Source of the DNA: Streptomyces aurantiacus
GTDB lineage: Bacteria > Actinomycetota > Actinomycetes > Streptomycetales > Streptomycetaceae
Length of the DNA: 64,000 nucleotides
NCBI RefSeq assembly: GCF_027107535.1
Contig: NZ_CP114283.1
Span: 4,898,001 to 4,962,000 of the forward strand
Direction: 5' to 3'
Positions 196-24,326 of the stretch are shown here, in pieces. How positions within the stretch are numbered: the first letter of the stretch is position 1; every line of letters begins with the position of its first letter. A program made the position numbers and the translations under genes. The notes under the pieces are model-generated. The model was not told the DNA's origin. It saw only the letters and a program-made list of their open reading frames with translations, and did no database searches.

Positions 196-1653
196 TTACG
201 CCTGCTGGAACAGTGTGGGCACCAGGCCATCGCCCGGCCAGAGGTCCTGCTCGGCTACGAGGCCGGCCAGGAACATGTCGACCTCGGCCAGAACGGTGGC
301 GCGCTCCTGGGGTCCGTAGGTGATGACTTGGTTGGCCGCGGCGTCGAAGGCTCGCACGTGGTTGTGCGGGCCGCTGATGATGAGGGCGCGTGCGATCTCG
401 GGGAGGCCGAGGCTGAGGGCGTCGCACTCCCCTGCGCGGACGAGTTGCACGAGGTCGGTGGTGACGGTCTCCCAGTCGCCGACCGTCGGCCAGTCGGCGC
501 CGCCGCCCAGTTCGTGGGTGAGGGTAGAGAGCGGGATGATCTCGCCTGGCTTGCGTCCCTGGGTGAGGCGGTTGTGGATCTGAGCTCCGTCGGGCTGTCG
601 TACCTGGGGGTGGAGCAGGGAGGCTGCGGCTACCACGACGGTGTTGATCTCTTGGGAGCCGTCACCGAGGTAGTACGGCTCGTGTGCGAAGAGCAGATAG
701 ACGTCCCTGGTGTGGACGTCGTCGGCGGGCTGGTCCTGGGTCATGGGGCGGTATCCCTTCAGCGGTGAAGCGCCGGGTTCGCGTCGAGGTGCTGGCCGTG
801 CCGCCAGTTCGAAGCCCGGCGGGTACGGGCCCAACGGGCCTTCCTGGCCGCTGGGCTGGTTCTCCGTGCCGGAACGGGCCTTGGTGCGGGTGCCCTCCAG
901 GGTCTGGGCGACTTGGTCGGCGAGCTGGACCATCAGCCGCTCGCGGTCGATCAGTTGAGCCGAGGCCGAGCGGGTGTCCTGGCTCTGGAGGAGGCCTGCG
1001 GCGTCCCATAGCAGGTGCTGGCCTGTCTCGGCCGAGCGGCGCAGTTCGTAGCGGTCGCTGCCGGCGGCGGCCTGGACGAGGGAGGTGTGCAGGACCGCGA
1101 GGCGTTGCAGGTACTGGCAGGCGGCGTCTCCTTCGACGCTGCGGACGTGTTCGCCGGCCCGGTCGTCGAGCCGGTCGGGCAGGTGCTCTGCGAGCAACGG
1201 GGCGAGCAGCATCCCGGGCAGCACGAGGTCGCCGGGGATGCCGCGGCCGAGGGCGAACAGTGCGGCGACGAGGCTGATGAATCCCATGGCGACCGCGGAG
1301 AGCCGCAGGGATGCGGAGCTCGCGGGGGCCAAGGCGATGCGTCTGGCGGGACGCCGGGTCAGCCAGCGCACGGCCAGCCGCTGGGTCAGCGTCGCGTCCG
1401 GGGTGAGTACCCCGATCTGCAGAGGGAGCTCGGGCAGGGTGCCGTCACCGGGCACGGTCCAGGCCAGCCACCCCCACCCGGTGCGCTCGTGCACGAGTAC
1501 GGGCTCACACGTTCCGGTACACGCGGTGTCGCGGCGGACATGACCGGCCTGCAGCGCGCGCGATCGTTCGTCCTCCCACCGCTTGGGATCGCGGGCGAAG
1601 GGACGGAGACGTTGCTGGGGTGCCGTCCGGGGTGGTGTGTGGAGGGTGTCCAT
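196..1653 (-). CDS. Element-encoded membrane-anchored hypothetical protein
   Basis: A 485-residue protein begins at the ATG that overlaps the stop of the upstream HTH gene (TGATG), so the two are translationally coupled. Two hydrophobic segments lie near residues 120-165. The N-terminal part is basic; the C-terminal half is soluble and acidic and begins around an internal Met at base 744. That internal Met has its own good ribosome binding site (AAGGGA), so a shorter product of 182 residues starting MTQDQPADD may also be made. I do not recognise the family. Coupling to the putative element regulator suggests a role in maintenance, regulation or transfer of the element. Confidence 0.7.
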   Translation of the reverse strand: MDTLHTPPRTAPQQRLRPFARDPKRWEDERSRALQAGHVRRDTACTGTCEPVLVHERTGWGWLAWTVPGDGTLPELPLQIGVLTPDATLTQRLAVRWLTRRPARRIALAPASSASLRLSAVAMGFISLVAALFALGRGIPGDLVLPGMLLAPLLAEHLPDRLDDRAGEHVRSVEGDAACQYLQRLAVLHTSLVQAAAGSDRYELRRSAETGQHLLWDAAGLLQSQDTRSASAQLIDRERLMVQLADQVAQTLEGTRTKARSGTENQPSGQEGPLGPYPPGFELAARPAPRREPGASPLKGYRPMTQDQPADDVHTRDVYLLFAHEPYYLGDGSQEINTVVVAAASLLHPQVRQPDGAQIHNRLTQGRKPGEIIPLSTLTHELGGGADWPTVGDWETVTTDLVQLVRAGECDALSLGLPEIARALIISGPHNHVRAFDAAANQVITYGPQERATVLAEVDMFLAGLVAEQDLWPGDGLVPTLFQQA

Positions 1654-3098
1654 CACGAAGTGCTCCCTTCCAGAAGGTCGGTTATGGCGGCCAGGGCGGA
1701 GGTGCAGGTGGCGCAGCGGCCGTCGCCGTCGGGGTGGGCGCGGCGGGGAGTCGGCCCGGGGCAGGTGCGGCACAGCGGCCAGTCGAGGCAGGCCGGGCAG
1801 AGGTCTTCGCCGGGGGCGGTGCCGGGCCTGCCGCAGCCCGCGCATTCGACGAGCGCCCGGTAGGTCAGGGCCGCGCTCACCGTGCGGGCGGCGGAAGCCG
1901 TCGTCGAGGACGACTCGGTTGTCGACGGGGCGAGGGGCTCGTCGTCCGGCGAAGGCGCCCGGTGATCTGCCACTGTGGCGGGCGGCGGGTAGGCCTGGGC
2001 CGCCCTCAGTCGGGCGGCGATGATCGCTCCTACCGTGGTGCGCACCGGGTGTGGCAGGGGCCGGTCGGTGATGACGTGGCGCAGCTGTTCGGGGCTCCAG
2101 CCGGCGTCCATCATCACCGTCACGACGCGGCCCTGATCGGTCAGCGGCTTCCCGGTCAGCAGCAGTTCAGGTCGGCTCGCCCCGATCTCCAGCAGCAGCC
2201 GGATACCCGGATGCATGTCATCTGCCGGGGGCGCGCCTGTCTGGTCCGGCCGGGCGGGTGTCCGCGCGGCTTCGCCGCGGGCGCACGGAGGGAGGGATCT
2301 GTTGTTCTGCTTGTTGGTCTTCTTACTGATGGTGTTCTTTGTGGGGCGGTCAGCCAACGTAGGGTTATCCAGTCCTGGATTTCCCGACTCTGGTTGTGAC
2401 CTGGCGTTTTGCAGGCTGGGCAGGTCGGTGATGAAGTACGTGGCTGAGCCGAGGGTGCCGTCCGGGTTGCGGTCGCGGTCCCGCTGCAGGAATCCGTAGC
2501 GCTCAAGCTCGTTCAGCCCGGTCGTCACCGCGTCGACGCCTTCGCGGCCGCGGCGGGCCAGGTCCGCGACCGTCATGTGCCAGCCTTCGCGGTGGGTGCT
2601 GATCAGTCCGAACAGCCCCTTCGCCCTGAAGGACATGCGGCTGTCGCGGAGCAGGCTGTTGGCGATCTGGGTGAACTGGTCGCCGGCCATCACGCCTCGG
2701 CGGATCCCCATGCCGTAGTCGCCGCGGCCTTCCATGCGCTCCGTCGGCACGGGGAGCGCCGTGGCGGCGTCCGCCATCAAGGCGTCGACGAAGGTGGGTT
2801 GATCGGTGATGGAGTAGACGATCTCGCCGAGGGTGCCGGTCGTACGGCGGAGACGTTCGCGGATCAGATAGCCGTGAGTCTCCAGTTCTTGCAGCCCGGT
2901 GCGCACTGCGTCCCGTCCGTCGGGCCCGGAGCGGACGAGCCCGGCGACGGTCACCTGCCAGCCGTCCTCGTGCGTGCTGATGAATCCGAAGATTCCTTTC
3001 GCCTTGTAGGAGAGACGGCTGTCGCGGAACAGGCTGTTGGCGATCTGGGTGAACTGGTCGCCAGCCATCGAGCCTCGGCGGATCCGGCCTCCGGTCAT
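1653..3098 (-). CDS. Tandem winged-helix-like DNA-binding protein with C-terminal Cys clusters
   Basis: A 481-residue protein contains two copies of a domain of about 90 residues. Both open with MAGDQFTQIANSL, contain KAKG or RAKG and a GW(Q/H)xTVA turn, and end with an ITD(Q/L)P stretch. Each resembles a helix-turn-helix domain of plasmid and ICE replication or regulatory proteins. The C-terminal 100 residues carry CxxC clusters (CAGCGRPG, CPAC, CRTC, CATC) likely to bind zinc. The start at 3098 is preferred because the repeat unit begins at the preceding IRRG, which lies inside the frame; an ATG at 3068 is the alternative. Its upstream region carries the GTGGTCGG palindrome also found before the conjugation operon, so it is a good candidate for the protein that binds there. 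That role is inferred. Confidence 0.75.
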   Translation of the reverse strand: MTGGRIRRGSMAGDQFTQIANSLFRDSRLSYKAKGIFGFISTHEDGWQVTVAGLVRSGPDGRDAVRTGLQELETHGYLIRERLRRTTGTLGEIVYSITDQPTFVDALMADAATALPVPTERMEGRGDYGMGIRRGVMAGDQFTQIANSLLRDSRMSFRAKGLFGLISTHREGWHMTVADLARRGREGVDAVTTGLNELERYGFLQRDRDRNPDGTLGSATYFITDLPSLQNARSQPESGNPGLDNPTLADRPTKNTISKKTNKQNNRSLPPCARGEAARTPARPDQTGAPPADDMHPGIRLLLEIGASRPELLLTGKPLTDQGRVVTVMMDAGWSPEQLRHVITDRPLPHPVRTTVGAIIAARLRAAQAYPPPATVADHRAPSPDDEPLAPSTTESSSTTASAARTVSAALTYRALVECAGCGRPGTAPGEDLCPACLDWPLCRTCPGPTPRRAHPDGDGRCATCTSALAAITDLLEGSTS

Positions 3099-3295
3099 CG
3101 CGCGTCCGTGAGTGCCCTGTGCGCGCGGCAGCCGGGGCAGCCCACGCCGTTCGCGGAAGCGAGACGGGTGGTGCCGACGGTTGAGGGGACGCGCGTGGGA
3201 TCCATGGAGGCAGCTCACCCGCCGACGCCGACCAGGACTGCGTCCACAACCCCCGACCATCGATCACGATCCGGCAACATGCGCACTGAACTGCC

Positions 3296-3324
3296 GTGGT
3301 CGGGGGCGTGGTCGGGCCGACCAC
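3296..3324. promoter_or_regulatory. GTGGTCGG operator-like palindrome, copy 1
   Basis: The core at 3308-3324 is a perfect palindrome, GTGGTCGG-G-CCGACCAC. A third half-site GTGGTCGG lies at 3296-3303, exactly 12 bp before the core's first arm. It sits about 200 bp upstream of the tandem-HTH gene. The same core with the same 12-bp half-site spacing occurs at 6683-6723 before the conjugation operon. This looks like a binding site for an element-encoded regulator; the protein that binds is not known. Confidence 0.65.
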
Positions 3325-3570
3325 GGGTCGGGCAGTTGCTTCGCGGACGGCGCGGGGCTCGTCACGGCACTCGGCGTCGTCTCCCTTGTTCCGTCCGGCG
3401 TACGTCACCTCGCAGACGGCGCCCTGAGATGTGGATGACGGCCGCGGGCCGTTGCGAGGCAGTGTCGGCGTGCGGCCTCAAGCCCGTGTACCGCCGGCTC
3501 ATCACCTGATGAGGCGATGCGGCCAAGCATTGAATGACTGTCCCGGGTTCTGATCTCTTGGCTTCGACGC

Positions 3571-3597
3571 AAGCCCCTGCCGCATCCGCAGGGGCTT
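3571..3597. terminator. Hairpin between opposite-strand units
   Basis: AAGCCCCTGC at 3571-3580 pairs perfectly with GCAGGGGCTT at 3588-3597 across a 7-base loop. There is no long T-run. It lies between the minus-strand HTH gene's upstream region and the plus-strand gene at 3677, so it may stop read-through. Confidence 0.5.
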
Positions 3598-3676
3598 CTC
3601 CGTGTCCGGCCCGGTATTACTCCAGCCGTAGATCGTGATCATGGATACGGAGGCTGCTCGCCGGTAGCCTGCCTGG

Positions 3677-4168
3677 GTGGCTGAGATCTGGGGTGAGGAG
3701 CAGTTGATCGCGGACGGCTTCGAGCGTGTGTACGTCGAGTCGGATTGGAACGGCGAACCGTGGGCCGGCCTTGCTGACATCGACGGGAAGCCTCATTACT
3801 TCGAGATGCTCGTCTACGACCACAGCCATGAAGTCGATGAGTACCGGGTCTGGCCCGCAAGCGAGGCGGTGGCGGAGCTGGAGCGCGAGCAGTGGGCGAT
3901 CTACGCCAGGTTCTATGAGCGCCAGCAGGCGGGCGAGGTCGGACAGGAGAGCCACCCGGCCCACGGCGGGGTCGACGCCCGCTATGACGAGCTGGAGCTG
4001 CTGTTGGCGCCGCACCGCTTGGCGCCGGACGGCGCCCGTCGGCTCGTGTGTGAGCTGCGGTTCGTTGCCGGTGTCGACGTTCGCTACCGGGTCGAGGGGC
4101 CCGACTACTGGCTTCGGTGGCGTCCTAGGCCGCCGTTGATCATGGGGTGTTGTGGGGAGAACCAATGA
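3677..4168 (+). CDS. Hypothetical protein, 163 residues
   Basis: The frame opens with GTG at 3677. No ribosome binding site is visible, but TAGCCT lies at 3665-3670, a suitable -10 box a few bases before the GTG, so a leaderless transcript is likely. The protein is acidic and soluble, begins MAEIWGEEQLIADGFERVY, and has no membrane segment or recognisable catalytic motif. Codon use looks genuinely coding. Its last codons overlap the start of the IS701 remnant frame. I do not recognise the family; it is cargo in the remnant-rich zone of the element. Confidence 0.6.
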   Translation: MAEIWGEEQLIADGFERVYVESDWNGEPWAGLADIDGKPHYFEMLVYDHSHEVDEYRVWPASEAVAELEREQWAIYARFYERQQAGEVGQESHPAHGGVDARYDELELLLAPHRLAPDGARRLVCELRFVAGVDVRYRVEGPDYWLRWRPRPPLIMGCCGENQ

Positions 4169-4196
4169 TCACACGGCGGCCTCGGAAGCCGGCGTA

Positions 4197-4600
4197 GTGC
4201 CTGCCCACTGGCAGGAGGCATTCGAAGGGCTGATGAGCCGGATCGCCTGCCGGTTCTCCCGAGTTGAACCCCGTCGCCGGGTGCGGCGGTTGGTCTCCGA
4301 GCTGCTGTCGGACCTGTCGAGGAGGAACTGCTGGACCCTGGCCGAGCACGCGGGCGATGCCACTCCGGACGGCATGCAGCACCTGCTCCACCGGGCGAAA
4401 TGGGACGCCGACGCGATTCGTGACGACATACGCGCCTACGTGGTCGAGCACCTGCGCAACACCGAGGCGGTGCTCCTGGTCAACGAGACGGGGGATTTAA
4501 AGAAGGGCACCGCGACCGTCGGCGTCCAGCGTCAGTACACCGGCACGGCCGGCCGAGTCGAGAACGCCCAGGTTACCGTTTATCTCGTGTACTCGTCGTC
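4197..4600 (+). pseudogene. N-terminal fragment of an IS701-family transposase
   Basis: About 130 residues match the N-terminal third of IS701-type DDE transposases: the segment around LAEHAG, DGMQHLL, WDAD and DDIRAYVVEHL, then the catalytic region with [19 protein letters not shown] and the VYLVY strand. Two signs of decay are visible. The first catalytic Asp of the usual DETGD is Asn (NETGD, codon at 4482), and similarity stops after LVYS at about 4593. The frame then continues into unrelated sequence to 5012. The rest of the transposase is missing. Confidence 0.8.
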
Positions 4601-4659
4601 CGCGACCCAGCGCGCGGGTGCTCCCGCGTCCAAGGCCCGCTCGAGCAGCGACCCGGTCG

Positions 4660-4794
4660 AACCGCGAGCGTCACGCGGTCGAGTGCGGGATCAACCGTCT
4701 CAAGAGACACCGAGCGGTCGCCACGCGATACAACAAGCTCGCGGTCCGCGACGAGGCGACCGCCCTCATCGCAGCCATCAACGAGTGGCTGTGA
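4660..4794 (+). pseudogene. C-terminal fragment of an IS5-type transposase
   Basis: In the frame starting at 4660 the sequence reads as the last 44 residues of an IS5-type transposase. It contains the conserved [20 protein letters not shown] pattern and ends AAINEWL before TGA at 4792-4794. The catalytic Glu of this block is present, but the rest of the gene is missing. It lies 60 bases after the IS701 fragment, so two broken transposases of different families abut here. Confidence 0.8.
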
Positions 4795-4804
4795 CCCTCG
4801 GCCA

Positions 4805-5356
4805 TCACCCGGCGGGATCCACGTTCCACGCCTGCGGCAGATCGCTGCCGCAGAAGACGCAGACGAAGTCGTCCTCGCGCACAATGTTGTGCTCCTGGCA
4901 GCCGAGGCACCGGCGGAACACCACCTCGTGGGTGAACCCGGACGGCCGTTCTAGCCCTACGTCGTCCAGAGCACGAGCAACTTCCGACCAGGAGCCGATG
5001 TCGGGGCAGTAGCCGGTGGACTGGTTGCTGACCTCGCTCACGGTCCACCGGTCTGCCTCGCGCATGAAGCTGATCTCGCCGGCACTCAAAACCATGGCTC
5101 CGCCGGCACAGGCCACGTGCTCGCTCCGACGCGGCGCCAGCCGGAGCACACCGTCCGTGCCAACCACGAACGTGAACGGCTCGGTCAGCTCCGCCGCCGA
5201 TCGCCCAGCGGTCCAGTCGTCGAATTCTGCTGCCGAGCTGATCCGGCACCCGTCGCTGCCAGGCCGGACCGCAACCTTCAGCTCCACCGGTCCGACATAT
5301 CGGTAACTCCGCCCCCTCGTACTCACATCAGCCAACCTAGAGCACTTCCGACACAC
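4805..5356 (-). CDS. Hypothetical protein with C-terminal zinc-ribbon-like Cys pairs
   Basis: A 183-residue frame, or about 173 if it starts at the in-frame GTG at 5326. The middle is rich in beta-type sequence (FTFVVGTDGVLRLAPRRSEH). The C-terminus has two Cys pairs, CLGC and CVFC, separated by about 15 residues, typical of a small zinc ribbon. The pattern recalls conserved Streptomyces hypothetical proteins with a NQSTGYCPD segment, but no function is known to me. It lies between two IS fragments and is probably cargo. Confidence 0.65.
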   Translation of the reverse strand: MCRKCSRLADVSTRGRSYRYVGPVELKVAVRPGSDGCRISSAAEFDDWTAGRSAAELTEPFTFVVGTDGVLRLAPRRSEHVACAGGAMVLSAGEISFMREADRWTVSEVSNQSTGYCPDIGSWSEVARALDDVGLERPSGFTHEVVFRRCLGCQEHNIVREDDFVCVFCGSDLPQAWNVDPAG

Positions 5357-5359
5357 GCC

Positions 5360-6167
5360 CTAGCTTGAGTTTTAACCTGCAGGGCCCGTGCAGAGGAGGC
5401 TTTCGTAGCGCCCTGGCAGACTGCCCGCCATGGACACCGAAGCGTTCTGGCGCGTGCTCGATGCTGCTAAGGACAGTGACAAGCCGCTCGACGTCGCCGT
5501 CGCCGACCATCTGTCGGCCCTGCCCGCGGAAGAGATCCTCGCCTTCGAGAGCCGCTTCTCCCGTCTGCGCGACGCGGTCTACCGCTGGGACGTATGGGCG
5601 GCCGCCTACCTCATCGGCGGGGGCTGCTCCGATGACCGGTTCAGCGACTTCACGGCGGGTCTGGTGGCGCTCGGACGCGAGTGGTATGAACGGGCGGCTG
5701 CCTGCCCGGACGCCCTCGCCGGGCATCCTGCCGTGCGTACCGCGGCAGCCTCCAGGGACCAGGACGTCATCTTCGATGAAGACTTCAACTTCGTATCGTC
5801 CATCGCGTATAAGCGGCTGACCGGTGACACAGACGCCTTCTGGGAGGCCTGGAAGGCCTATACCGACGCTCGCGCCACGACCGAAGAGGAGGACAGCGAG
5901 GGCATGGGCGAGTCGTTCGACTTCGGCGATGCCCAGCAGATGCGTCGGCATCTGCCTCGGCTGGCTGCGCTCCATCTCGGTTCTGGATCAGGCTGACTCA
6001 CCCAGGGGCCCGCAGGTTCCGGAACCCCCACGGGATGGGCGCCACGTCGGCCGGTGTTTCAGAACTCCAACCGACCCTGGTCCACGGCACGTTGAGCCGT
6101 CGCTCATCAGGAGCAATGCGCCCACAACGAACACCAGAGGCTGGTCTGAGGTTAAAACTCAAGCTAG
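5360..6167. repeat. 19-bp perfect inverted repeats bounding a DUF4240 gene
   Basis: CTAGCTTGAGTTTTAACCT at 5360-5378 is repeated in exact reverse complement at 6149-6167. The 808-bp segment between the outer ends carries only the DUF4240 gene. The repeats are A/T-richer than their surroundings and look like transposon ends. No transposase lies inside, and I see no clear target duplication. It could be a non-autonomous mobile unit or two ends of older IS copies. Confidence 0.7.
5430..5996 (+). CDS. DUF4240 domain protein
   Basis: The 188-residue protein shows the DUF4240 pattern: an N-terminal MDTEAFWRVLDAA, then FESRF, a YRWDVWAAAYLIGGGCSDD-type core, FTAGLVALGREWYE, and the acidic C-terminus common in the family. 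The function of DUF4240 proteins is not established. The ATG at 5430 has no good ribosome binding site. The gene sits alone between 19-bp inverted repeats. Confidence 0.85.
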   Translation: MDTEAFWRVLDAAKDSDKPLDVAVADHLSALPAEEILAFESRFSRLRDAVYRWDVWAAAYLIGGGCSDDRFSDFTAGLVALGREWYERAAACPDALAGHPAVRTAAASRDQDVIFDEDFNFVSSIAYKRLTGDTDAFWEAWKAYTDARATTEEEDSEGMGESFDFGDAQQMRRHLPRLAALHLGSGSG

Positions 6168-6183
6168 AACTTCCCCAAACCCA

Positions 6184-6327
6184 TCAGGCGCGGAGCCAGA
6201 TGGTCAGGGCGGCGACGGTGGTGGTGCCGGGGTAGACGTAGCGACGTCTGTCGTAGCGAGTGGCCACCGCGCGGGCCTGCTTGCGCTTGTTGATCGCCCG
6301 TTCGACGGTATTGCGTTTCTTGTACCG
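6184..6327 (-). pseudogene. C-terminal fragment of an IS5-type transposase
   Basis: Reading minus from about 6327, 47 residues match the end of IS5-type transposases: RNTVERAINKRKQARAVATR, then a YDRR-YVYPGT stretch and TVAALTIWLRA before the stop at 6184. The catalytic Glu (VER) is present; everything upstream is unrelated. It belongs to a different subgroup from the fragment at 4660-4794. Confidence 0.8.
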
Positions 6328-6400
6328 CGCCTCGCGTGGCGGCGGCCTGGCCCGTTGCTCACACCGCGCGGCCGGCGCTGAACGGCGGTCTGGTCCGAGT

Positions 6401-6563
6401 TGCGCAATCGGTGCGCGCTGCCGACTGCGCAGCCGTGCGCGGGGTGCTGCGCACCGGGCCGAGCGTCGTGCGCAATCGGCATGGGCGTGTGAGTGCGCAG
6501 CCGTACGGGGCTCCCTCAGCTTCCGGCTGCGCAGCCGGAGTTCTGGTTGCGTAGTTGCCCGGT
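6401..6563. repeat. Phased array of the palindrome TGCGCA
   Basis: TGCGCA occurs at 6401, 6426, 6448, 6469, 6494 and 6538, with a variant TGCGTA at 6558. Most steps are 20-25 bp, close to two helical turns. No convincing gene runs through the stretch. Seven more exact copies lie inside the next gene (7104, 7132, 7147, 7192, 7224, 7231, 7270), mostly as GCG-CAG (Ala-Gln) codons. Such phased palindromes are typical of sites for replication, partition or transfer proteins. Confidence 0.5.
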
Positions 6564-6682
6564 TCGGGAGGCGAGGTGCCGCTCGCCCGCAGGCCTTCCC
6601 GGGCGTGCGCACCGCTGTGCCGGCCGCCCCGATCACCGTGAGGTCCGCGTGTCGAAGCGGACTCCGCGCGGTGCGAAATGTC

Positions 6683-6776
6683 GTGGTCGGGTCTGTGGTC
6701 GGGCCGACCACAGACCCGACCACGGCCTTTGTGTCCTCTTCGTGACCGTGGTCGGGCCTTCGTGGTCGGTGGTCGG
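6683..6776. promoter_or_regulatory. GTGGTCGG operator cluster before the conjugation operon
   Basis: At 6683-6723 lies a 41-bp perfect palindrome built from four half-sites: GTGGTCGG at 6683 and 6695, then CCGACCAC at 6704 and 6716, with one central G. Three further half-sites follow at 6748, 6762 and 6769. The first conjugation gene starts at 6839. The core 6695-6711 is identical to the palindrome at 3308-3324. The pattern fits a strongly repressed or autoregulated transfer promoter. Confidence 0.7.
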
Positions 6777-6838
6777 GTCGGGGGCGGCCCGTTCCCTCGG
6801 GTCAGAAGCAACAACTCGCTCTGACCTGGGAGTTCGGA

Positions 6839-7771
6839 ATGTCTCGTGCCAAGCAGTCACGGGAGGGGCAGGCTGCTCCTCCGACAGCTGTGGACGCCCG
6901 GCTGCAGCAGATGCGGCGCCGGGTCCACCTGGGCCGCCTGGGCGTGTGGGCCGCCGTGGCGGCCGGTCCCCTCGCCCTGGCCGTCGCCGTCGCCACCCCG
7001 GCGACCGTGGTCCGTGCCGCCCCCGCGACGAAGCCGACCACCGTGAAGACGACCGTGTCGGCCAACCCGTCCGGGTACGCCACGCTGTTCCTCAGCGCGT
7101 GGTTGCGCAGCCGTGCGGGCGGTGAGAGCAGTGCGCAGGCCCGGCTTGCGCAGTCGATGGGCCCGGACGTCGATCTTCCCGATGCGTCGGGTGCGCAGCT
7201 CGGGCCGGAGTCGGTCGTGGCGGTGCGCAGTGCGCAGCAGTCCGGCCAGGCGTGGTCGGTGACGCTGGCTGCGCAGTACGCCGACGGACGGTTGCGCTAC
7301 TTCGCGGTGCCGGTCGTCGCCGACGCGGATGGCGCCTCGTTCACCGTGTCCGGTGCCCCTGGGGTGGTGGCCGGCCCGTCACGCGCCGGGGAAGTGCCCT
7401 CGCCCTACACGGTGACCGTCCCGACCACCGGTGATCTGTCGTCCGCGGCTGGGGAGTTCTTCGCCGCGTATCTGACCGGGGCCGGTGAAGTCGACCGCTA
7501 CCTCTCTCCCGGGGTTCAGCTGTCGCCTGTCTCTCCCGCCCCGTACGAGTCGGTCACCGTCCAGCAGGTCCTCTCCGTCGAAGAGGCCGCGGCCGCCGAG
7601 TCCGTCCCGGCGGACGGGACCCGGGTGCGGGCGATGGTTCAGGTGGAGGCCCGCGACCGTGCCGGGCGGTGGCCGCTGGCGTACGAACTGACCCTCACAG
7701 CCCGCTCAGGACGCTGGGAGATCACCGCACTCCAGACCGGCACCACCGCCCAGGCGGGAGGTGACCGGTGA
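6839..7771 (+). CDS. TcpC-like conjugal transfer membrane protein
   Basis: A 310-residue protein with a cytoplasmic basic N-terminus, one membrane segment at about residues 33-58 and a long external part. The external part has two related alpha/beta segments: one around ASGAQLGPESVVAVRSAQ, the other ending in ELTLTARSGRWEITALQ. This layout is that of TcpC, the VirB8-like scaffold of Gram-positive conjugation systems. The ATG follows a good ribosome binding site (GGGAG). It is the first gene of an operon in which each gene overlaps or abuts the next. The DNA contains seven TGCGCA copies, most encoding Ala-Gln. Confidence 0.75.
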   Translation: MSRAKQSREGQAAPPTAVDARLQQMRRRVHLGRLGVWAAVAAGPLALAVAVATPATVVRAAPATKPTTVKTTVSANPSGYATLFLSAWLRSRAGGESSAQARLAQSMGPDVDLPDASGAQLGPESVVAVRSAQQSGQAWSVTLAAQYADGRLRYFAVPVVADADGASFTVSGAPGVVAGPSRAGEVPSPYTVTVPTTGDLSSAAGEFFAAYLTGAGEVDRYLSPGVQLSPVSPAPYESVTVQQVLSVEEAAAAESVPADGTRVRAMVQVEARDRAGRWPLAYELTLTARSGRWEITALQTGTTAQAGGDR

Positions 7772-8109
7772 ACACCGCGCAGAACCTGATGCTCGCCGGG
7801 GAGTTGGACGAACTCGGCGACAGCTGGATCGACATGTTCATGGGGTGGGCGACCAAGGGCCTGCAGGCCGGGCTGCTCGTGCTCGTCGTCGTGATCATGA
7901 TCCAAAAGTTCTCGTTGAAGGCCGGGATCGGCGCACTGATCCTGATGGTGATCGCGCTCGGCCTGTACAACTCCCGCAACGACCTGGCCAGCATGTTCGA
8001 GGACGAGGTCAAGAACCCGTCCAAGGGCGCGCCCGCCGTCCCCGGCATCGTCCAGGGTGGGCCCGCGGCCGGCCGCGAACCCTCCTCAGATGTCGGAGGC
8101 TGGCTGTGA
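7768..8109 (+). CDS. Small membrane protein of the transfer operon
   Basis: A 113-residue protein starts at a GTG overlapping the previous stop, with GGGAGGTGA just upstream. Two hydrophobic segments at about residues 32-45 and 51-65 (LLVLVVVIMI and IGALILMVIALGLY) are followed by a short hydrophilic tail. Size and position match the small membrane subunits (TcpD type) found between TcpC and TcpE in Gram-positive transfer operons. Assignment rests on layout. Confidence 0.65.
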   Translation: MNTAQNLMLAGELDELGDSWIDMFMGWATKGLQAGLLVLVVVIMIQKFSLKAGIGALILMVIALGLYNSRNDLASMFEDEVKNPSKGAPAVPGIVQGGPAAGREPSSDVGGWL

Positions 8110-8660
8110 GCGCCGCCGCATCCGTGCGGATGGGCCGCTTCTACACCGCTGCCCGCCGTCACCCCTGGGTGCTGGGCAAGGTGGCCGACTGGCGCATCCC
8201 GCTCGGCCCGTTCACGCCCGCGCAGATCCTCCTCGCTGTCGCCGGCGGCTTCCTGCTGGTCAAGACGATTCCGTGGTGGTCGTGGATGGGGCCGGTCCCC
8301 ATCGCCGCCTGGCTGCTGGCCATTTGGGCCGTGCGCCGTCAGAAGATCGGAGGCCGTGCCCCGCTGCCTGCGGCCCTGGGCTGGCTGCTGCGGTGCTGGC
8401 AGCCGCGCGGAGGCCGGATCGGCGGCCGAGCGGCACGCGACCACGCCGCCCGCCCGGTGATCGGCGGCTTCGTCATCGAAGGGGCCGTGCCGGTCGCCGC
8501 AACTCCGCAGACGAAGACGTCCGCCGCGCGCACGCCACACCCTGAACCTGCACGGTCACCGTCGGGCCCTCGCATGGCGGCGCCCGGCCCGGAGCCGGTG
8601 CGGCCGGTGTCGGGTGTGCAGCAGCTGCTCGCGCGCGCCGGACAGGGGGGTGCGCGATGA
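8106..8660 (+). CDS. TcpE-like membrane protein of the transfer operon
   Basis: The 184-residue protein starts at the GTG at 8106, overlapping the previous stop. After a basic N-terminus (RFYTAARRHPWVLGKVADWR) there are two membrane segments at about residues 38-70. A basic Pro/Ala-rich tail follows. This resembles TcpE/PrgI-type inner-membrane proteins that sit just before the VirB4 ATPase in conjugation operons. The last bases overlap the ATPase start (ATGA). Confidence 0.65.
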   Translation: MSAAASVRMGRFYTAARRHPWVLGKVADWRIPLGPFTPAQILLAVAGGFLLVKTIPWWSWMGPVPIAAWLLAIWAVRRQKIGGRAPLPAALGWLLRCWQPRGGRIGGRAARDHAARPVIGGFVIEGAVPVAATPQTKTSAARTPHPEPARSPSGPRMAAPGPEPVRPVSGVQQLLARAGQGGAR

Positions 8661-11323
8661 GGGTGCCGATCCGTCACATCGCCGGGCATCTGGTGTGGTC
8701 GACGTCGGGCAGCGTGTGGGCCGTCTACCGGCTGCACCCGGGTCCCGACGCGCAAGGCCGCACGGAGGAGACCGTGCAGGGCACCTACGTGCCGGCCGCC
8801 GTACGGGAGGAGGAGCTCGCAAAGATCACGCATCTGGTGCGGTCGCTGTCGGGGGCGCCGCGGCTGTTCGGCTGGTGCGCCCGGGTCGATCCGGGAGAGG
8901 TCGCGCTGCGCATGATCGAGGGCATCGAGCCCGCCGAGGCGCCGGGGCAGGTGCACCCGTGGGTGGAGAACGTCGAGGCCACGCTGGATCTGCTGGACGG
9001 GCAGGAGATGCACCGCCGCACGCTGTGGCTGGCCGTCCCGCTGTCCGCTGATGGCGCCGGCCTGCAGGTGACTGCTCAGTTCGGTGCGGTGTGGGCAGAG
9101 TTCGCCCCGTCGCTGGGCATGCGGCCGGCGCCGGTGGCCCGGCGGGAGGTGACCGCATACCAGGAGCAGGCCTCCCGGGTGGAGGCCGCACTCGCCGGCG
9201 GCATCGCGTTCCGCCCCGCGCGCCCGGCGGAGATCGTGTGGATGATCCAGCACGCGCTGCACCGGGGTCTGGAGGAGCCGCTGCTGGCCGAAGCCGAGAG
9301 CAGCGAGCTGTACGGCGGGCGGGTGCGCGCGGGGGTGCTGCACTCCCCCAGCTACGCCGATCTCGGGCAGGCCCGCCTCCAGGAGGGCGGCATCGACCCG
9401 GACCTCGACGACGTCGGCGACCTCAAGAGCGCCGACCGGCTCACGCGGTCGGGGCGCGGGGCCTGGTGGCGGCTCAAGACTGCCTCTCCGCTGCGCAGGC
9501 GGTGGCTGCAGATCGAGTCCGACGTCGGCACCGGCTACCAGGCGCAGCTGGCGCTAGCCGAGTGCCCGCCCTCGGTCAGCGCGGATGCCGCCGACCTGTT
9601 CGCGCAGCTGGAGACGCTCGATTTTCCCGTCGACTACACCGTCGACCTCGCCCTGGTGCCCGCGGAGAAGGCGCGGGATCAGGTGCGGCGCAAGCGGAAC
9701 GAACTCGTCGACCAGGCCGACCAGTACGACGCCCGCCCCACCGGCATGCCGACCTCGCTGACGGAGGCAGCCCGCGACCTGGGCGAGCTGGACGCCCGTC
9801 TGTCGCGCACCAGCGTGGAGGTCGAGGTGCAGTCGGTGACTGTACTGACGGTGTGGGGGCCGACCGCCGCGGTCTGCGACGCCCGCGCCCGGGCCCTGGC
9901 TGCCCTGCTCGGCGGCGCCGACTACCGGGCCGTGCGCCCGGCCGGCCTTCAGGAGGCCCTGTTCCTGCTCGGGCTGCCGGGCACCGCACGGCCCGGCGTG
10001 GTGCGGGAGTTCACCCAGCATCAGGTCTCCGAGGACTGGGCCCTGGGCGGCGCCTTCACCACCGGGGAGGTCGGAGACCCCAACGGCATGTTCCTCGGCC
10101 TCGATCTGGACTGCGGCACCACCCGCCCCGTCATGATCAACGTGGCGGACGCGCCGAAGCACGACGCCAGCGCCTCCCTGGGCATCGTCGGTGACCTGGG
10201 AGCCGGGAAGAGCGTCCTGCAGAAACTGATATCCGAAGCGGTGTGGGCGCGCGGCGGCTGCGCGATCTGCATCGACCGCACCCCGGTGCGCGAATGGGCC
10301 GCCTTCGCCCGTACCGCTGCCAAGGGGCGCGTCCAGATCATCGACGCCGCCCAGGCCGAGGTGTCTATCGACCCGCTGCGGATGTTCGACGGGCCCGAGG
10401 GCCGCCACTACGCCCTGTCCTACCTGACCCTTCAGCTCGGCATCGGCCCGATGAGTACAAATGGCGAGGTCCTGCACCACGCCGTCGAGCAGGCCGCCGC
10501 CGGCGACCGGCCGTCCATGCGCCGGGTGCTTCAGGTCCTGGAGGAGATGGCCACGCGCGAGGTGGGCAAGCGGCAGGATGCGGCCGCCACCCTCGCCGGC
10601 CTCATCCGCGTCGTCGCCACCAACTCCCTGGCGGCGATGGTGTTCGACCCCGCTCTGCCGCCGGTGCGGCTGGATGCCTCCAGCACCTCCGACATGATCG
10701 TCATCACGACGGCCGGTCTGAAGCTGCCGCCCAAGGCCGCGTTCGGCAATCCGGAGATCCTGCACCAGCAGCCGCTGGAAGCGCTGATCGGGCGCGCGGT
10801 GCTCTATCTGATCGCGGCGATCGCCCGGCAGACGGCGTTCGAGGACCCCGCCCGGTTCACCGCGGTGGTCGCGGACGAGCTGTACTGGCTCACCTCGTCG
10901 GCCGAGGGAACCGCGCTGGTCCACGAGATCCTCCACGACGGCCGCAAGCACGGCGCCGGCCTGCTCGCTGCCTCCCACGACGCCGAGGAACTTGGCCCCG
11001 ACCGCGGGCTGATGGCCTACCGGGCGCTCGCCCGTACCGCGGACCGTGAGCGTGCCCGCCGCGGTCTGGAGTTCGTCGGCCTCGACCCGGACGACCCGGA
11101 GCTGCTGCGGCTGGTGACCACCGGCCTGTCCCCCGTCGGACGGAAGGGCCGCGAGGGCGAGTTCCTGCTGGCCTGCCCGCGGCAGAACACCGGCCGGGTC
11201 AAAGCCGTCATCCCCCGCATCGAGCGCATCACCGCCTCCATCACCACCACGCCCGGCCGCCGTACGGCCGCGCGTGCCTCCGGCGGTCCCGACGCGGCAC
11301 GGCCGAAGGAGCACGTCTCATGA
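8657..11323 (+). CDS. VirB4/TcpF-type conjugation ATPase
   Basis: An 888-residue ATPase, the usual size for VirB4 family members. The Walker A motif GDLGAGKS is at residues 512-519 and the Walker B acidic pair is in AVVADELYWL (D740, E741). The N-terminal 450 residues carry the family's alpha/beta platform. The final part has the HDAEEL and FLLACPRQN segments typical of such ATPases. It should power assembly of the mating channel at the membrane. The ATG overlaps the previous stop by four bases, and the gene ends four bases into the next. Confidence 0.85.
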   Translation: MRVPIRHIAGHLVWSTSGSVWAVYRLHPGPDAQGRTEETVQGTYVPAAVREEELAKITHLVRSLSGAPRLFGWCARVDPGEVALRMIEGIEPAEAPGQVHPWVENVEATLDLLDGQEMHRRTLWLAVPLSADGAGLQVTAQFGAVWAEFAPSLGMRPAPVARREVTAYQEQASRVEAALAGGIAFRPARPAEIVWMIQHALHRGLEEPLLAEAESSELYGGRVRAGVLHSPSYADLGQARLQEGGIDPDLDDVGDLKSADRLTRSGRGAWWRLKTASPLRRRWLQIESDVGTGYQAQLALAECPPSVSADAADLFAQLETLDFPVDYTVDLALVPAEKARDQVRRKRNELVDQADQYDARPTGMPTSLTEAARDLGELDARLSRTSVEVEVQSVTVLTVWGPTAAVCDARARALAALLGGADYRAVRPAGLQEALFLLGLPGTARPGVVREFTQHQVSEDWALGGAFTTGEVGDPNGMFLGLDLDCGTTRPVMINVADAPKHDASASLGIVGDLGAGKSVLQKLISEAVWARGGCAICIDRTPVREWAAFARTAAKGRVQIIDAAQAEVSIDPLRMFDGPEGRHYALSYLTLQLGIGPMSTNGEVLHHAVEQAAAGDRPSMRRVLQVLEEMATREVGKRQDAAATLAGLIRVVATNSLAAMVFDPALPPVRLDASSTSDMIVITTAGLKLPPKAAFGNPEILHQQPLEALIGRAVLYLIAAIARQTAFEDPARFTAVVADELYWLTSSAEGTALVHEILHDGRKHGAGLLAASHDAEELGPDRGLMAYRALARTADRERARRGLEFVGLDPDDPELLRLVTTGLSPVGRKGREGEFLLACPRQNTGRVKAVIPRIERITASITTTPGRRTAARASGGPDAARPKEHVS

Positions 11324-11727
11324 CCACGTCTTCCTTCTCCTCGTCCCGTTGCCGGCGCATCGCCGCCGTGGCGAGCGCCCTGCTCGTGATAGCCCTGCCG
11401 GCCGCCCTGCTCGCCCTGGTGGTGGGGGCAGGCGTGCCGGAGTCGTGGTGGCCGCGCACCGGGCGGGCCTTCGCCGCCGACTCTCCCTCCCTCTCCCCCT
11501 CAGGCTCCGGCTCCGGCTCCGGCTCCGCTCACCAGGATCCGTGCGATCTGGTTGCGGGGCCGGCCCAGAAGTACTGCGAGCGCGGCACCGGCTCCCCCGC
11601 GTCCTCCGCGGGCGAGTCTCGCCGCGACGGCGCATGCACGGCATGGATGGTCGTTGCGCCCGCTGCCGGGCTGGCTGCCGTCGTCGTGTGGCGGCGCCGG
11701 GGCGCAGCCGGATGCGGGCGGCGCTGA
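11320..11727 (+). CDS. Exported Cys-motif protein of the transfer operon
   Basis: A 135-residue protein with an N-terminal membrane segment or signal sequence (residues 12-37) and a Ser/Gly repeat linker (SPSGSGSGSGS). The motif CDLVAGPAQKYCER follows at residues 75-88, and a second hydrophobic segment (AWMVVAPAAGLAAVVVW) lies near the C-terminus. The Cys motif, with Cys at positions 1 and 12, recurs twice in the next gene's product. AGGAGC precedes the ATG. The stop TGA is directly followed by the next ATG. The family is unknown to me. Confidence 0.65.
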   Translation: MTTSSFSSSRCRRIAAVASALLVIALPAALLALVVGAGVPESWWPRTGRAFAADSPSLSPSGSGSGSGSAHQDPCDLVAGPAQKYCERGTGSPASSAGESRRDGACTAWMVVAPAAGLAAVVVWRRRGAAGCGRR

Positions 11728-14394
11728 ATGTGGCGTCCCGACCGCGCGACGTTCCGCTCGGCCGGTGTCGTCGTCCTGTTCTGCGGTGTCTTCGTCCTGG
11801 TCAACAGCCAGGTCGTGTACGCGGCGAGCAGCAGCAGTGAGACCGGTGATCTTCTCGCACCGCTGAACATCACCTCCTCCGAGGGGGTGGCGATCAACGG
11901 CTACGAGCTGAACGCCGAGGGCGGCTCCATTGTCAGCTTCAAGACGCAGTCCCTCGCCTTCGCCCTGTCCGGTCTGTTCACCCTCATCCGGCTCCTGGTC
12001 GGGCTGGCGGGCTGGGCCATTGAGGTCGCCTTCCGGTTCCCGCTGCTGAAGATCCTCACCGACCCGGCCCAGAGGGTCGCCGACGCCTACAACAACGTGG
12101 TCGTCGACACCCTCGGTCTCAAAGGGTTGCTGCTGGCCTGGAGTTTCGTTTTCACGGGGTTCATCATGGTGCGCGGCCGGGTCGGCCGCGGTCTCGGTGA
12201 GATCTTCCTGACCCTGCTGATCGCGGCGTTCGCCGCGTCCGCCTTCGTCCGCCCCGACTACCTGCTGACCGAGAACGGACCGCTGGGGCAGACCCAGCAG
12301 GTGGCCGCCGAGGTTGCCCAGGAGAGCGTCAACTCCTATGACTGGGGCGGCAAACTCGCCGGCCTCAGTCCGTGCGCCGGCATGGCCGGCATGCAGGAGA
12401 TCAAGTGCGAGGAGCTTGAGGCCGCGAAGCCGGTGTCGGCGAAAGACGTGGCCCGCCCGCTCCAGGACGCGGTCACCAACGCGATGATCGTCAAGCCCTA
12501 CATGCTGCTGCAGTACGGGCGCATCCTCGACCCGGCCAAAGGGTCCGACCGTAAGGCCTACGCCGTCCACCTGAAATGGGTCACCGGCGGCTACCGGGCC
12601 TCCAAGGACAACGCCGATGAGGACGATGGCAAGAACAACTGCGACCTGCTCGACGGGCAAGCCAGGAGGGTATGCGAGGCCGACACTGCAGACAAAGAGG
12701 ATGAGGGTCCCTGCGACCTGGTCCATGGCGATGCCAAGAAGTACTGCGAGCGCGAGGATGACCCGGGCAGCGGTGTGGACGGCCTGCCGGAACTCACCCC
12801 TGGTGGTGAGTTGCTGGACTCGGCGAATGCGGTGGTCAGCGAGGAGGACCGCGAGTTCCAGGCGTTCCTCGATGACCTGAAGAAGGCCGGCGATGTCGGC
12901 AAGGCGTGCGCCACGTACGCGGAACAGCCCACCTGGTGGCGGCTCGGCGGCGCCTTCCTGATGCTGATCGCCGCGCTGTTCGTCTGCGGCATGCTGCTGT
13001 CGGCCGCGATCGTCCTGCTCGGCACCCAGGGCATCTGCGCCGCGGCCGCAGCCGTCGGCGGCGTTGCGTTCGTCGCGGCCATGCTGCCCGGGCCTCCACG
13101 GCAGACGGTGTGGAAGTGGCTGTCGATCTGGGGCATCGCGATCCTCGCCATGGTCGGCATCTGCGCGTTCGTACCGTTCTTCGGCATTGCCGTCGACGCC
13201 ACGATCACCGATGGACCGGATCTGATGGTCGAGCGGATCCTCCTGATCGACGTGCTGGCCATCGCGGGCGCGGCCGGGCACCGCCGGCTGCTGACGGGCA
13301 TCACATCCTTCGGCCGTCGCATGGCCATGCGGATGCGGTACGCCAAGATCGGCGGCACCCACATGCCCGGCGACACCTCCGAACTCGGCGCCGCACTCGC
13401 CATGAACTCCCCGGCAGCCATGGGCGGATACGGCGGCGGACTGCGCGCCTTCACCGGAGGCGGTGGCGGCCGGTACGGGCTGCTGGGCACCCGGCATCGG
13501 CTGACGGGCGCCCTCTCCTCCTTCCTCGACGGCTCGGGCATGCCCGTCGACACCGGGCAGATCTTCGCCGATGCCACTGCGGAGGCCAGGCGAGGCCTCG
13601 CCCCGCTGACCGCCGCAGCGGCCGGTGCCGGGATCGGCGCGCGGCTCGGCGCAAGGAGTGCGCACTGGCTGCTGATCGGCAGGCGACCGGACAAGGAGCA
13701 ACTGGCCAAGTGGCAAAAGCCCACCGGCACCGATGGTGAGGACGGCGCCGTGGGCGGCGGTGAGGGCGAGGGTGAGGGCGGCCTTCTGCGGCGCGGTGGC
13801 CCGCGGGACCGCTACCGTGATGAGGAGGGCCAGGTCGTCGACCGCAACACCGGTGAGGTGCTGCACGACCAGGACACCGACCGCACCCTGCTGTCCACGC
13901 GAGCCCACAACCGCATGGTCCGCTTCCGCGGCTACCGCATCCTCAACCGAGGCGCCCGGGCCGCCTACGGAACGACGGCCGGCCTGCCGGCCAACGTGCG
14001 CCGGGCCGGGCGGAGCGGCTCGCGCTACACCCAGGACGCCCGCCAGCAGGTTCAGGTGTGGCGCAACACCATGCGCGAAGACCGGCGGGCCTGGGGCGAC
14101 GTGGGGCGGCACACGGCCCAGGTGATGCGCGACCACAACGACGACAGAGGCGACATAGCCTTCCGCAGCCGCCGCCTGCCTACCGGTAGCACGACGACAC
14201 GGCCGGGCTCCCCCGGTACGCGGCGCTCGGCGCCGACGCCGTCCGCTCCCCCACGGCGGCTGACAAACGCTCCCTCTGAGGTGCGTCGTCGGCTCCGCGA
14301 TGCATTCGACCGGGGGCACGACGACGGTGCGAGGCCGCGGCCGCGTCCGACGGACGGTACGGACGGCACCCGCGACGGTGGTGGTGGCGAGTGA
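11728..14394 (+). CDS. VirB6-like polytopic conjugation channel protein
   Basis: An 888-residue membrane protein. It has an N-terminal signal or membrane segment (residues 10-32), further segments near 73-100, 130-145 and 160-180, a large hydrophilic loop, and four segments between about 405 and 530. A long charged cytoplasmic tail follows. The layout is that of VirB6-like proteins from Gram-positive transfer systems. The loop carries CDLLDGQARRVC (from residue 305) and CDLVHGDAKKYC (from residue 329), the same 12-residue Cys motif as in the preceding gene product. The tail is Gly- then Arg/Asp-rich. It starts directly at the preceding stop and overlaps the next gene. Confidence 0.75.
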   Translation: MWRPDRATFRSAGVVVLFCGVFVLVNSQVVYAASSSSETGDLLAPLNITSSEGVAINGYELNAEGGSIVSFKTQSLAFALSGLFTLIRLLVGLAGWAIEVAFRFPLLKILTDPAQRVADAYNNVVVDTLGLKGLLLAWSFVFTGFIMVRGRVGRGLGEIFLTLLIAAFAASAFVRPDYLLTENGPLGQTQQVAAEVAQESVNSYDWGGKLAGLSPCAGMAGMQEIKCEELEAAKPVSAKDVARPLQDAVTNAMIVKPYMLLQYGRILDPAKGSDRKAYAVHLKWVTGGYRASKDNADEDDGKNNCDLLDGQARRVCEADTADKEDEGPCDLVHGDAKKYCEREDDPGSGVDGLPELTPGGELLDSANAVVSEEDREFQAFLDDLKKAGDVGKACATYAEQPTWWRLGGAFLMLIAALFVCGMLLSAAIVLLGTQGICAAAAAVGGVAFVAAMLPGPPRQTVWKWLSIWGIAILAMVGICAFVPFFGIAVDATITDGPDLMVERILLIDVLAIAGAAGHRRLLTGITSFGRRMAMRMRYAKIGGTHMPGDTSELGAALAMNSPAAMGGYGGGLRAFTGGGGGRYGLLGTRHRLTGALSSFLDGSGMPVDTGQIFADATAEARRGLAPLTAAAAGAGIGARLGARSAHWLLIGRRPDKEQLAKWQKPTGTDGEDGAVGGGEGEGEGGLLRRGGPRDRYRDEEGQVVDRNTGEVLHDQDTDRTLLSTRAHNRMVRFRGYRILNRGARAAYGTTAGLPANVRRAGRSGSRYTQDARQQVQVWRNTMREDRRAWGDVGRHTAQVMRDHNDDRGDIAFRSRRLPTGSTTTRPGSPGTRRSAPTPSAPPRRLTNAPSEVRRRLRDAFDRGHDDGARPRPRPTDGTDGTRDGGGGE

Positions 14395-15542
14395 GGCGCC
14401 GTCGTGGCCGGGCGGCCAAGTGGGGCTGTGTGGTGGTGATGCTGCTGTTCGCCGCCGTGTGCTGCGCTGCGCCCGTGGGGAACGCGATCAGTGCGTACGT
14501 CGCGTTGAGGACGGGTGCGCAGGATGACAGCGGGATCGCAGAGGGCGGCAGTGCGGCGGACATCCCGGCCCGGATGCTGGCCGCGTACAAGAAGGCCGGC
14601 CAGCAGGTCGGGAAGCATGTGCCCAAGTGCCAGGGCATGCGCTGGCCGATCCTGGCCGGGATCGCCAAGGTCGAGTCGAACCACGCGGTGGGCCGCAACA
14701 TCGCCGCAGGCGGAGACATCCGCCCGAAGATCTACGGGGTGCTCCTCAACGGTTCCGGAGCGGGTGGCAACACCACCGTCTTCCCGGACACCGACGGCGG
14801 CAAGTGGGACGGCACCTCTCAAGGCGAGCGCGCTGTCGGCCCCTTCCAGTTCCTGCCCTCCACCTGGGAGGGCGTCGGGAAGGACGCAGGCGGCGACCAG
14901 AGCGCCGACCCGCACAACGCCGACGACGCCGCGCTCGGCGCCGCGATCTACCTGTGCGGCAACGGCCGCGACCTGACCAAGCGCGCCCAGCTCAAAGCCG
15001 CGATCTGGCAGTACAACCAGTCAGGTGAGTACGTCGCCAACGTGCTCGGGTGGATCGACCAGTACACGGCGGCCGCCAAGGATCCGGATCTGAAGAACGT
15101 CACGGGCAGGGTTCGCACCGTCATCGAGGCGGCGCTCTCCCAGCGCGGTGTGCCCTACTCATGGGGAGGCGGCAACGCGAACGGCAAGTCGACTGGGTTC
15201 TGCTGCTCGCCGAGCGGAAAGAGCGGCACGGGGATCAAGGGCTTCGACTGCTCAGGGCTGACCCAGTACGCGTACGCGAAGGCCGGCATCAGCCTGCCGC
15301 GCGTCGCGTCTGCCCAAGCCGGTGTCGGCCAGCGGATCCCGGCCAGCCTCGGCACGCGCGCGCTCAAGCCCGGTGACCTCGTCTTCTATGCCACCGCTCC
15401 CGGACGCGACGCGACGATCTATCACGTGGGCATCTACCTGGGCAGCGGGCAGATGGTCAACGCCCCCAGACCTGGGGCGGTGGTGCGGCTGGACGGCGTG
15501 AACACCATGTCCGGCTTCGCGGGGGGAGCGAGGCTGCTGTGA
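14391..15542 (+). CDS. Lytic transglycosylase plus NlpC/P60 peptidase (VirB1-like)
   Basis: The 383-residue protein has one N-terminal membrane segment (residues 11-35). A soluble transglycosylase domain at about 60-225 follows, with the catalytic Glu in LAGIAKVESNHA and the GPFQFLPSTW block. The C-terminal NlpC/P60 domain has GVPYSWGGG, the catalytic Cys in GFDCSGLTQYAY, and the His in IYHVGIYLG. It should open the peptidoglycan for the mating apparatus. It starts at a GTG overlapping the previous stop. This two-domain hydrolase is a common marker of Gram-positive type IV secretion-like conjugation. Confidence 0.9.
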   Translation: MRRRRGRAAKWGCVVVMLLFAAVCCAAPVGNAISAYVALRTGAQDDSGIAEGGSAADIPARMLAAYKKAGQQVGKHVPKCQGMRWPILAGIAKVESNHAVGRNIAAGGDIRPKIYGVLLNGSGAGGNTTVFPDTDGGKWDGTSQGERAVGPFQFLPSTWEGVGKDAGGDQSADPHNADDAALGAAIYLCGNGRDLTKRAQLKAAIWQYNQSGEYVANVLGWIDQYTAAAKDPDLKNVTGRVRTVIEAALSQRGVPYSWGGGNANGKSTGFCCSPSGKSGTGIKGFDCSGLTQYAYAKAGISLPRVASAQAGVGQRIPASLGTRALKPGDLVFYATAPGRDATIYHVGIYLGSGQMVNAPRPGAVVRLDGVNTMSGFAGGARLL

Positions 15543-23779: not shown

Positions 23780-24009
23780 CCCACACCGCTCCTTCCCCGT
23801 CTCACCCTGATCGCGGCGCCCGCCAGGCGCCGCACGGCGGACCGGCCGCGCCGGGCCGCAACCCACACGCGCCGCCCCAAGCCTCTGATCACGACGCGCC
23901 CACCCTGCCACCTGCCACAGACAATCCATCCCCCAGCAAGCAGGTACAGGCAAAGGAGAGAGAAGAGGGTTGTCGGGGTTCGTGGTCGGGGCTGGTCAAG
24001 GGGTCTGAC

Positions 24010-24091: not shown

Positions 24092-24326
24092 GGAGGCTTG
24101 CCCGACAGCCGGTACGGGCGCGGAGCGTGCAGTGGGCAAGGTGGCAGGTGCGCCGGACGTATCCGTCACAGGATCTGCGTGCCGGAGCCGGCCGCTCCCC
24201 TCGCGGGCGGCTGCCAGAGCGGGTGCCCGAACTGGTGGAACCTCGTTTCTCCCACATCACTTCAGGGGTTAGAAAGCCGCCGCATCGACTCCGATGCACC
24301 CCCTTCCTTTGATGAAACAGGACCTC

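Follow-up and report, generated by a model that had tools for sequence, protein, structure and literature searches.

Operator arrays before a tandem winged-helix gene and a TcpC transfer operon suggest an element-encoded regulon in Streptomyces aurantiacus

A stretch of 64,000 nucleotides of the Streptomyces aurantiacus genome (contig NZ_CP114283.1, positions 4,898,001 to 4,962,000; here called the window, whose numbering is used throughout) carries one palindromic sequence in front of two transcription units, the first led by a gene for a tandem winged helix-turn-helix (wHTH) protein and the second by a TcpC-like conjugation gene. The locus raises the question of which protein reads this sequence and whether one regulator controls both units. 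The preferred answer, which comparison of sequences makes probable, is an element-encoded regulon, in which the wHTH protein would bind dyad arrays at two places, upstream of its own gene and upstream of the TcpC operon, and would most likely repress both. The features involved are the following.

3296 to 3324, minus strand: dyad array of the wHTH gene, with half-sites at 3296-3303, 3308-3315 and 3317-3324 and the core at 3308-3324.
3228 to 3269, minus strand: proximal part of the wHTH promoter, with the TCGTGATC block at 3262-3269 and half-sites TGGTCGG at 3253-3259 and 3228-3234, a layout also present in the listed part of a 51-locus alignment.
6683 to 6723, plus strand: dyad array of the TcpC operon, a 41-bp palindrome with four half-sites, at 6683, 6695, 6704 (reverse) and 6716 (reverse).
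6740 to 6776, plus strand: proximal module of the TcpC promoter, with TCGTGACC at 6740-6747, a half-site at 6748-6755 and overlapping half-sites at 6762-6769 and 6769-6776.
1653 to 3098, minus strand: gene of the tandem wHTH protein (inferred start 3098, end 1653), 481 amino acids from that start, with HTH_36 / MarR_2 matches, two wHTH domains, a linker, a conserved region and a Cys motif.
6839 to 7771, plus strand: TcpC-like first gene of the transfer operon, by Pfam match (PF12642).

The 17-bp core GTGGTCGGGCCGACCAC occurs in exact copies at 3308-3324 and 6695-6711, as an earlier note, made from the sequence alone, had claimed, and both copies sit inside larger arrays of the half-site GTGGTCGG. 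With the central base left free and at most one mismatch, the core has two matches in the window against a mean of 0.02 in 100 shuffles, none of which reached two. Clusters of at least five seven-base half-sites also number two, and two clusters were obtained in none of 20,000 random placements, so that shuffles and placements rule out chance or coding coincidence for the window sites. The extra half-site exactly 12 bp away that had been described for both copies was found upstream of each core (3296 and 6683), and the TcpC array has one on the opposite side too, at 6716. The perfect 41-bp palindrome holds for 6683-6723, with a single central G between the arms, and one further pair extends it to 6682-6724; the three additional half-sites reported to follow lie at 6748, 6762 and 6769. 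Beyond that first description, two proximal half-sites are present on the wHTH side, and a TCGTGA[CT]C block is common to both promoters (3262-3269 on the minus strand and 6740-6747 on the plus strand).

The earlier note had proposed a search of related elements. A scan of species genomes with an alignment of the wHTH protein gave 70 loci, 50 of which have a TcpC gene divergent from the wHTH gene. Half-sites occur in these 50 loci at 5.75 per kb between the genes and 0.249 per kb around them, a 23-fold difference, and at least two exact half-sites lie between the genes in 49 of the 50. The gap between the two genes is below 800 nt in 36 loci and wider in the other 14, like in the window. Among 32 compact loci, 20 have the wHTH array centred about 224 nt from that gene's reference start, and 24 have the TcpC array centred about 134 nt from the TcpC start. 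Most of the 14 wider loci keep the distances between arrays and genes too, though the space between the arrays reaches 4 kb. In the listed part of the 51-locus alignment both promoters have the same plan, which is a dyad array, a spacer, TCGTGACC, a half-site and then more half-sites. The divergent layout shared by the relatives makes the window operators look like one divergent control region pulled apart, and the two arrays probably belonged to a single promoter region before the following insert split it.

3502 to 6360, no strand assigned, limits approximate: insert separating the two arrays, with a DDE_5 transposase fragment in an open reading frame (ORF) at 4152-5012 and other ORFs.

The host genome of 9.9 Mb is made up of a 9.54-Mb contig, in which the window lies, and a contig of 360 kb, C1, regarded as a plasmid, and it contains three exact cores, the two of the window and one on C1, about 1.2 kb past the 3’ end of a gene of the replication-relaxation family (PF13814). 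Occurrence of the core at many unrelated places, which the earlier note had named as evidence against a dedicated regulator, is not seen in the strain’s own genome and is seen in part in a wider sample of the genus, where the exact core is present in 35 of 295 genomes and the reversed pattern in one of 295. By location classes assigned by hand, the core is at mobile-element genes in 21 of the 35 and is coincidental, in coding or other places, in 14. Of the 22 genomes with a strong homolog of the wHTH protein (E up to 1e-100), 13 have element-borne cores, as do 8 of the 273 others. Half of the 14 coincidental cases lie within a conserved gene pair (L039, L041, L051, L056, L061, L067 and L069; L numbers designate loci) and the other seven elsewhere. 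The one pair tested encodes protein kinase and periplasmic-binding domains, and the core inside it is read as a coding coincidence inherited by descent. No further arrays were found with the wider TcpC homologs of the family, and no GTGGTCGG arrays at the outgroup wHTH genes L162 and L164-L168; L321-L328 have zero to two copies of TGGTCGG. As a separate observation, a replication-relaxation gene precedes the wHTH gene in the outgroup elements L162, L165, L166, L323 and L326, in L323 and L326 after a gene for an ATP/GTP-binding protein.

It bears on the reader of the arrays that both arrays of an element change together. The arms of the wHTH-side and TcpC-side cores are more alike within an element (1.229 versus 1.771, standard deviation 0.110, in 48 of 51 loci), a result reached in none of 20,000 shuffles and, without L154, in two of 20,000; the test is template-free and leaves out L139, L146 and L155. 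L131, L140 and L159 have the variant TGGTCAG in common, L139 has an identical odd core at both sides, L161 has CTGGTCGG at both, and in L154, L319 and L320 each of the two promoters carries a GTGGAGGG array. The natural operator change is from GGTCGG to GGAGGG. In the genome of L154 (G295) the GTGGAGGG array type is found at the wHTH-TcpC element, and the pattern has one further match, on a different contig, which does not exceed the control rate. Just ahead of the predicted recognition helix, the proteins of L154, L319 and L320 read ATDG or STDG; the 87 segments obtained from 47 of the 50 other loci, minor array variants included, read GPDG (41), GREG (17), GRDG (14) or SRDG (9), with six further cases that include one GTDG. 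As both arrays switched within one element, an element-encoded reader is the simplest cause, and the joint switch of arrays and protein segment points to the wHTH protein as the candidate dyad reader. The earlier idea of one regulator for both units, perhaps the tandem wHTH protein, is supported by these two kinds of change, together with the half-sites between the genes in related loci, the mostly kept distances and the distribution of element-borne cores among genomes.

Two wHTH domains in one chain are indicated by an internal repeat of 260 nt with 75% identity, by the domain alignment and by the structure model. In the arrays that the tandem protein would bind, a pair of half-sites spaced by 12 bp is mirrored by a second pair on the other side of the dyad, and its two domains could fit such paired half-sites. 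Repression of both promoters is the most likely outcome, in which transfer would be off by default and the regulator would cap its own level. By analogy, the wHTH protein is probably an autoregulating repressor like TraN of the Enterococcus plasmid pIP501, which has two wHTH domains in one chain and represses the tra operon promoter and its own promoter (PMC6540685, in excerpt). The window protein shares the two domains in one chain, and at the level of sequence the sites before the transfer operon and before its own gene; it differs in its long C-terminal part, in the divergent genes and in the arrays of four half-sites with a proximal module. No TraN chain is among its PDB sequence matches with E up to 1, though distant kinship may remain, and against solved structures its sequence gives only weak matches to ribosomal L32, in the Cys region.

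In plasmid pLS20 of Bacillus subtilis, the regulator RcoLS20 is divergent from the conjugation operon, has two operators, regulates itself and acts with looping (PMC4207663, in excerpt). A divergent regulator with two operators is also the arrangement in 50 of the 70 wHTH loci, split by the insert in the window. Rco is an Xre-family protein, whereas the window protein has HTH_36 / MarR_2 matches only, and no Xre-family or GntR domain (Pfam, E up to 0.01). Looping is known for pLS20; for the related loci the helical phase is weak (R 0.41 in 32 loci), and looping is not claimed here. KorA and KorB are global regulators of plasmid RK2, with one operator before several functional modules of the plasmid. 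A likeness to them is that half-sites occur at three genes of S. chartreusis NZ_CP107763; the protein families differ. In Streptomyces, KorSA, of the GntR type, is a regulator of transfer genes. A TraR-like gene lies near tcpC on S. mirabilis plasmid pI (PMC9195940, in excerpt). KorSA and TraR are GntR proteins, unlike the HTH_36/MarR_2 protein of the window. The operon at the window site encodes TcpC and a VirB4-like ATPase; Streptomyces clt / TraB recognition repeats would have an FtsK-type TraB gene at the site. SarS of Staphylococcus has two fused winged-helix domains; it is rank 6 in Foldseek with E 0.011, a weak match with no common context known.

The half-sites nearest to the genes appear to have a different reader. 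DNA like the TcpC operator is present in 49 plasmid records. The best 17 of the 49 have 84-98% query cover, contain most or all of the dyad and, compared by eye, are all wHTH matches too; the lower ones have mostly the proximal half alone or the dyad alone. Seven of 11 lower records, S. avermitilis SAP1 among them, have a replication-relaxation gene that begins 68-74 nt after the end of the match; two of the other four are at transposases and two have neither neighbour. Ten replication-relaxation promoters, these seven and three on C1, all have the TCGTGACC block and two to four direct half-sites. They were chosen by their match to the proximal module, so the half-sites are no independent support; the informative part is the missing dyad, which in exact form is absent from all 10 of these promoters on replicons without the wHTH protein. 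Since the half-site also serves replication-relaxation genes where there is no wHTH protein, the latter would not be the sole reader of all half-sites, which limits the idea of a single regulator. At both promoters of the GTGGAGGG elements, the change extends over the half-sites of the dyad and the first of the proximal ones, and the last two proximal GGTCGG are kept.

We read this as two modules, in which the wHTH protein would recognise the dyads and another factor the proximal repeats. That other factor may be the replication-relaxation protein or the transcription machinery; a second reader of the gene-proximal half-sites is likely. A more extended version is put forward tentatively, as something that may well prove otherwise: an ancestral half-site could be read in two layers, the dyads by the element’s own wHTH protein with co-switched specificity, and the proximal repeats by a reader common to many Streptomyces replicons. 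If true, the second layer would tie the conjugation genes of one element to replication-relaxation genes that other elements bring into the cell, such as the strain’s 360-kb plasmid.

Several points weigh against the assignment of the dyads to the wHTH protein. The three GTGGAGGG elements are alike and may count as one evolutionary event, and the TcpC-side picks of L156 and L169 in the test of concerted change are no operator. In L148 both arrays are of a GTACC-type variant, yet its segments are the ordinary GPDG and GREG, much as in its relative L144, which has normal arrays. Elements with a single wHTH domain retain the array of four half-sites on the TcpC side (degenerate in L150), so that the array does not strictly go with the number of domains. 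The structure model of the wHTH protein is weak, with a mean predicted local distance difference test score (pLDDT) of 60.9 and a predicted template-modelling score (pTM) of 0.30. Dyads of L064, L065 and L073 (genomes G281, G025 and G283) lie before another class of replication-relaxation gene, with no wHTH homolog at E 1e-10, and this does not fit a neat split into two modules.

The best placed of the other explanations, still an unlikely one, is that the half-sites are recognised by the replication-relaxation protein, which also has a wHTH region and would control the wHTH gene and the transfer operon as well as its own gene. This family is the sole one common to all five operator-bearing sequences compared, by crude gene calls. 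It is above cut-off in 10 of 13 hand-picked operator-bearing plasmid records (the 11 lower ones and two that bear the wHTH gene) against two of 13 for the wHTH protein, a count that understates the latter, as the 13 were chosen from the 49 and are mostly partial matches. Operator-like DNA 68-74 nt before its genes on seven of 11 plasmids would also agree with it. However, its recognition helix does not track the operator: RQTVSxPLNKL and IEQTRRRLAKL types both occur with GGTCGG, and the GTGGAGGG element L154 has RQTISRPLNRL. A helix that varies at a constant operator and is nearly unchanged at a differing one makes this protein less likely as the dyad reader, and the exact dyad is missing from its 10 promoters picked by the proximal match.

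Less probable again is a replication origin with the arrays as its iterons, the wHTH protein as initiator and promoter control as a secondary effect. Streptomyces plasmid Rep proteins bind iterons (PMC3583192, in excerpt). The repeats adjoin the wHTH protein’s gene, and dnaB stands beside distant single-wHTH relatives on two circular Streptomyces plasmids (L325 and L327), where the order is a GntR gene, the wHTH relative and then dnaB, a neighbourhood which suggests a replication-initiator origin of the wHTH protein group. A dense repeat array also lies between the operator arrays.

6401 to 6611, no strand assigned: TGCGCA array of seven copies between the two dyad arrays, identified by repeat density in relatives.

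TGCGCA repeats reach 7.73 per kb between the genes and 1.09 elsewhere in the 50 loci (L104-L171; none in L130), and are possibly repeats of an origin or transfer origin. They are also found near some distant TcpC genes that have few GTGGTCGG-type half-sites (L244, L246 and L248). Against iterons, no helicase or primase is annotated next to the wHTH gene on two wHTH-bearing plasmids or is found among the tested window genes around it, and the operator arrays hold their distances to two start codons as the space between them grows to 4 kb. Least probable of all is reading by a host factor or use as a promoter element of an alternative sigma factor. In its favour, the TCGTGACC-TGGTCGG layout recurs at promoters of unrelated genes, with sigma-factor genes near two such loci (SAP1 and plasmid C1). 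Against it, G295 has GTGGAGGG arrays at its own wHTH-TcpC element and a single other match within the control rate, and a host factor would not explain a switch of this kind in one element; a core promoter element would also not usually take the form of dyad arrays.

The preferred regulon, controlled by the wHTH protein, is in mode of action like the known autoregulated conjugation repressors; the novelty lies in the group to which the protein belongs, in an operator of two modules and in the naturally occurring change of operator. The parts of the open-access literature covered contain no description of the operator, of the wHTH protein or of the control of TcpC/VirB4-type Streptomyces conjugation modules, on plasmids or islands. 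The regulon yields a candidate regulator and a sequence that predicts its targets, and the change from GGTCGG to GGAGGG makes the binding code testable by exchange of protein and array. It also gives a handle on possible sensing or interference among several mobile elements that share one Streptomyces.

Around the two promoters, the window contains these further features.

6800 to 6826, plus strand: inverted repeat GGTCAG...CTGACC in the TcpC leader, directly before the presumed ribosome-binding site, its columns conserved in relatives.
7768 to 16180, plus strand: rest of the transfer operon (7768-8109, 8109-8657, VirB4-like ATPase 8657-11323, 11320-11727, 11728-14394, NlpC/P60 14391-15542, 15539-16180).
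16204 to 17012, minus strand: ORFs of IS4/5-type transposases, where the transfer operon breaks off.
202 to 1656, minus strand: conserved partner ORF that follows the wHTH gene immediately and shares 68% identity with its counterpart on S. chartreusis plasmid NZ_CP107763.
22997 to 23737, minus strand: replication-relaxation gene (PF13814) of the same region, with one half-site at 23982-23989.

Translational control by the leader repeat at 6800-6826 is possible. Besides TcpC, the VirB4-like ATPase and NlpC/P60, the operon from 6839 encodes conserved small proteins. It is truncated after 16180 relative to the S. chartreusis plasmid, at the adjoining transposase ORFs, and neither a coupling ATPase nor a match to the single MobF relaxase query was found in the 94 kb searched. 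The window transfer module is probably defective; its control region looks intact. The partner ORF has no Pfam match. Among the wHTH matches listed (120 of 576), the closest relative, from Streptomyces sp. NPDC060006, is 97% identical, and most are named hypothetical or are nameless.

Half-sites and dyads were also noticed in other settings. On C1, partly palindromic clusters of half-sites (L005 9387-9426 and L227 7544-7571) lie 15-29 nt past the 3’ ends of two replication-relaxation genes, besides the promoter copy. Plasmids NZ_CP109587 and NZ_CP108083 (L272 and L273) have about 37 bases of the dyad array roughly 55 nt upstream of transposase genes of the IS4 and IS630 families, at two places per record, and these copies are possibly insertion-sequence ends or hitch-hikers. 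On the strain’s own chromosome (L229, C2:1793000-1806000), the Wadjet type II genes JetA and JetB adjoin a replication-relaxation gene and tandem 33-bp repeats composed of a half-site and TTGCGCAGG. Before the replication-relaxation gene of the window, the stretch 23960-24100 contains one half-site, TGGTCAAGGGGTC and GGTAGGG-type repeats, and by eye it resembles the C1 stretch around the 348-kb core.

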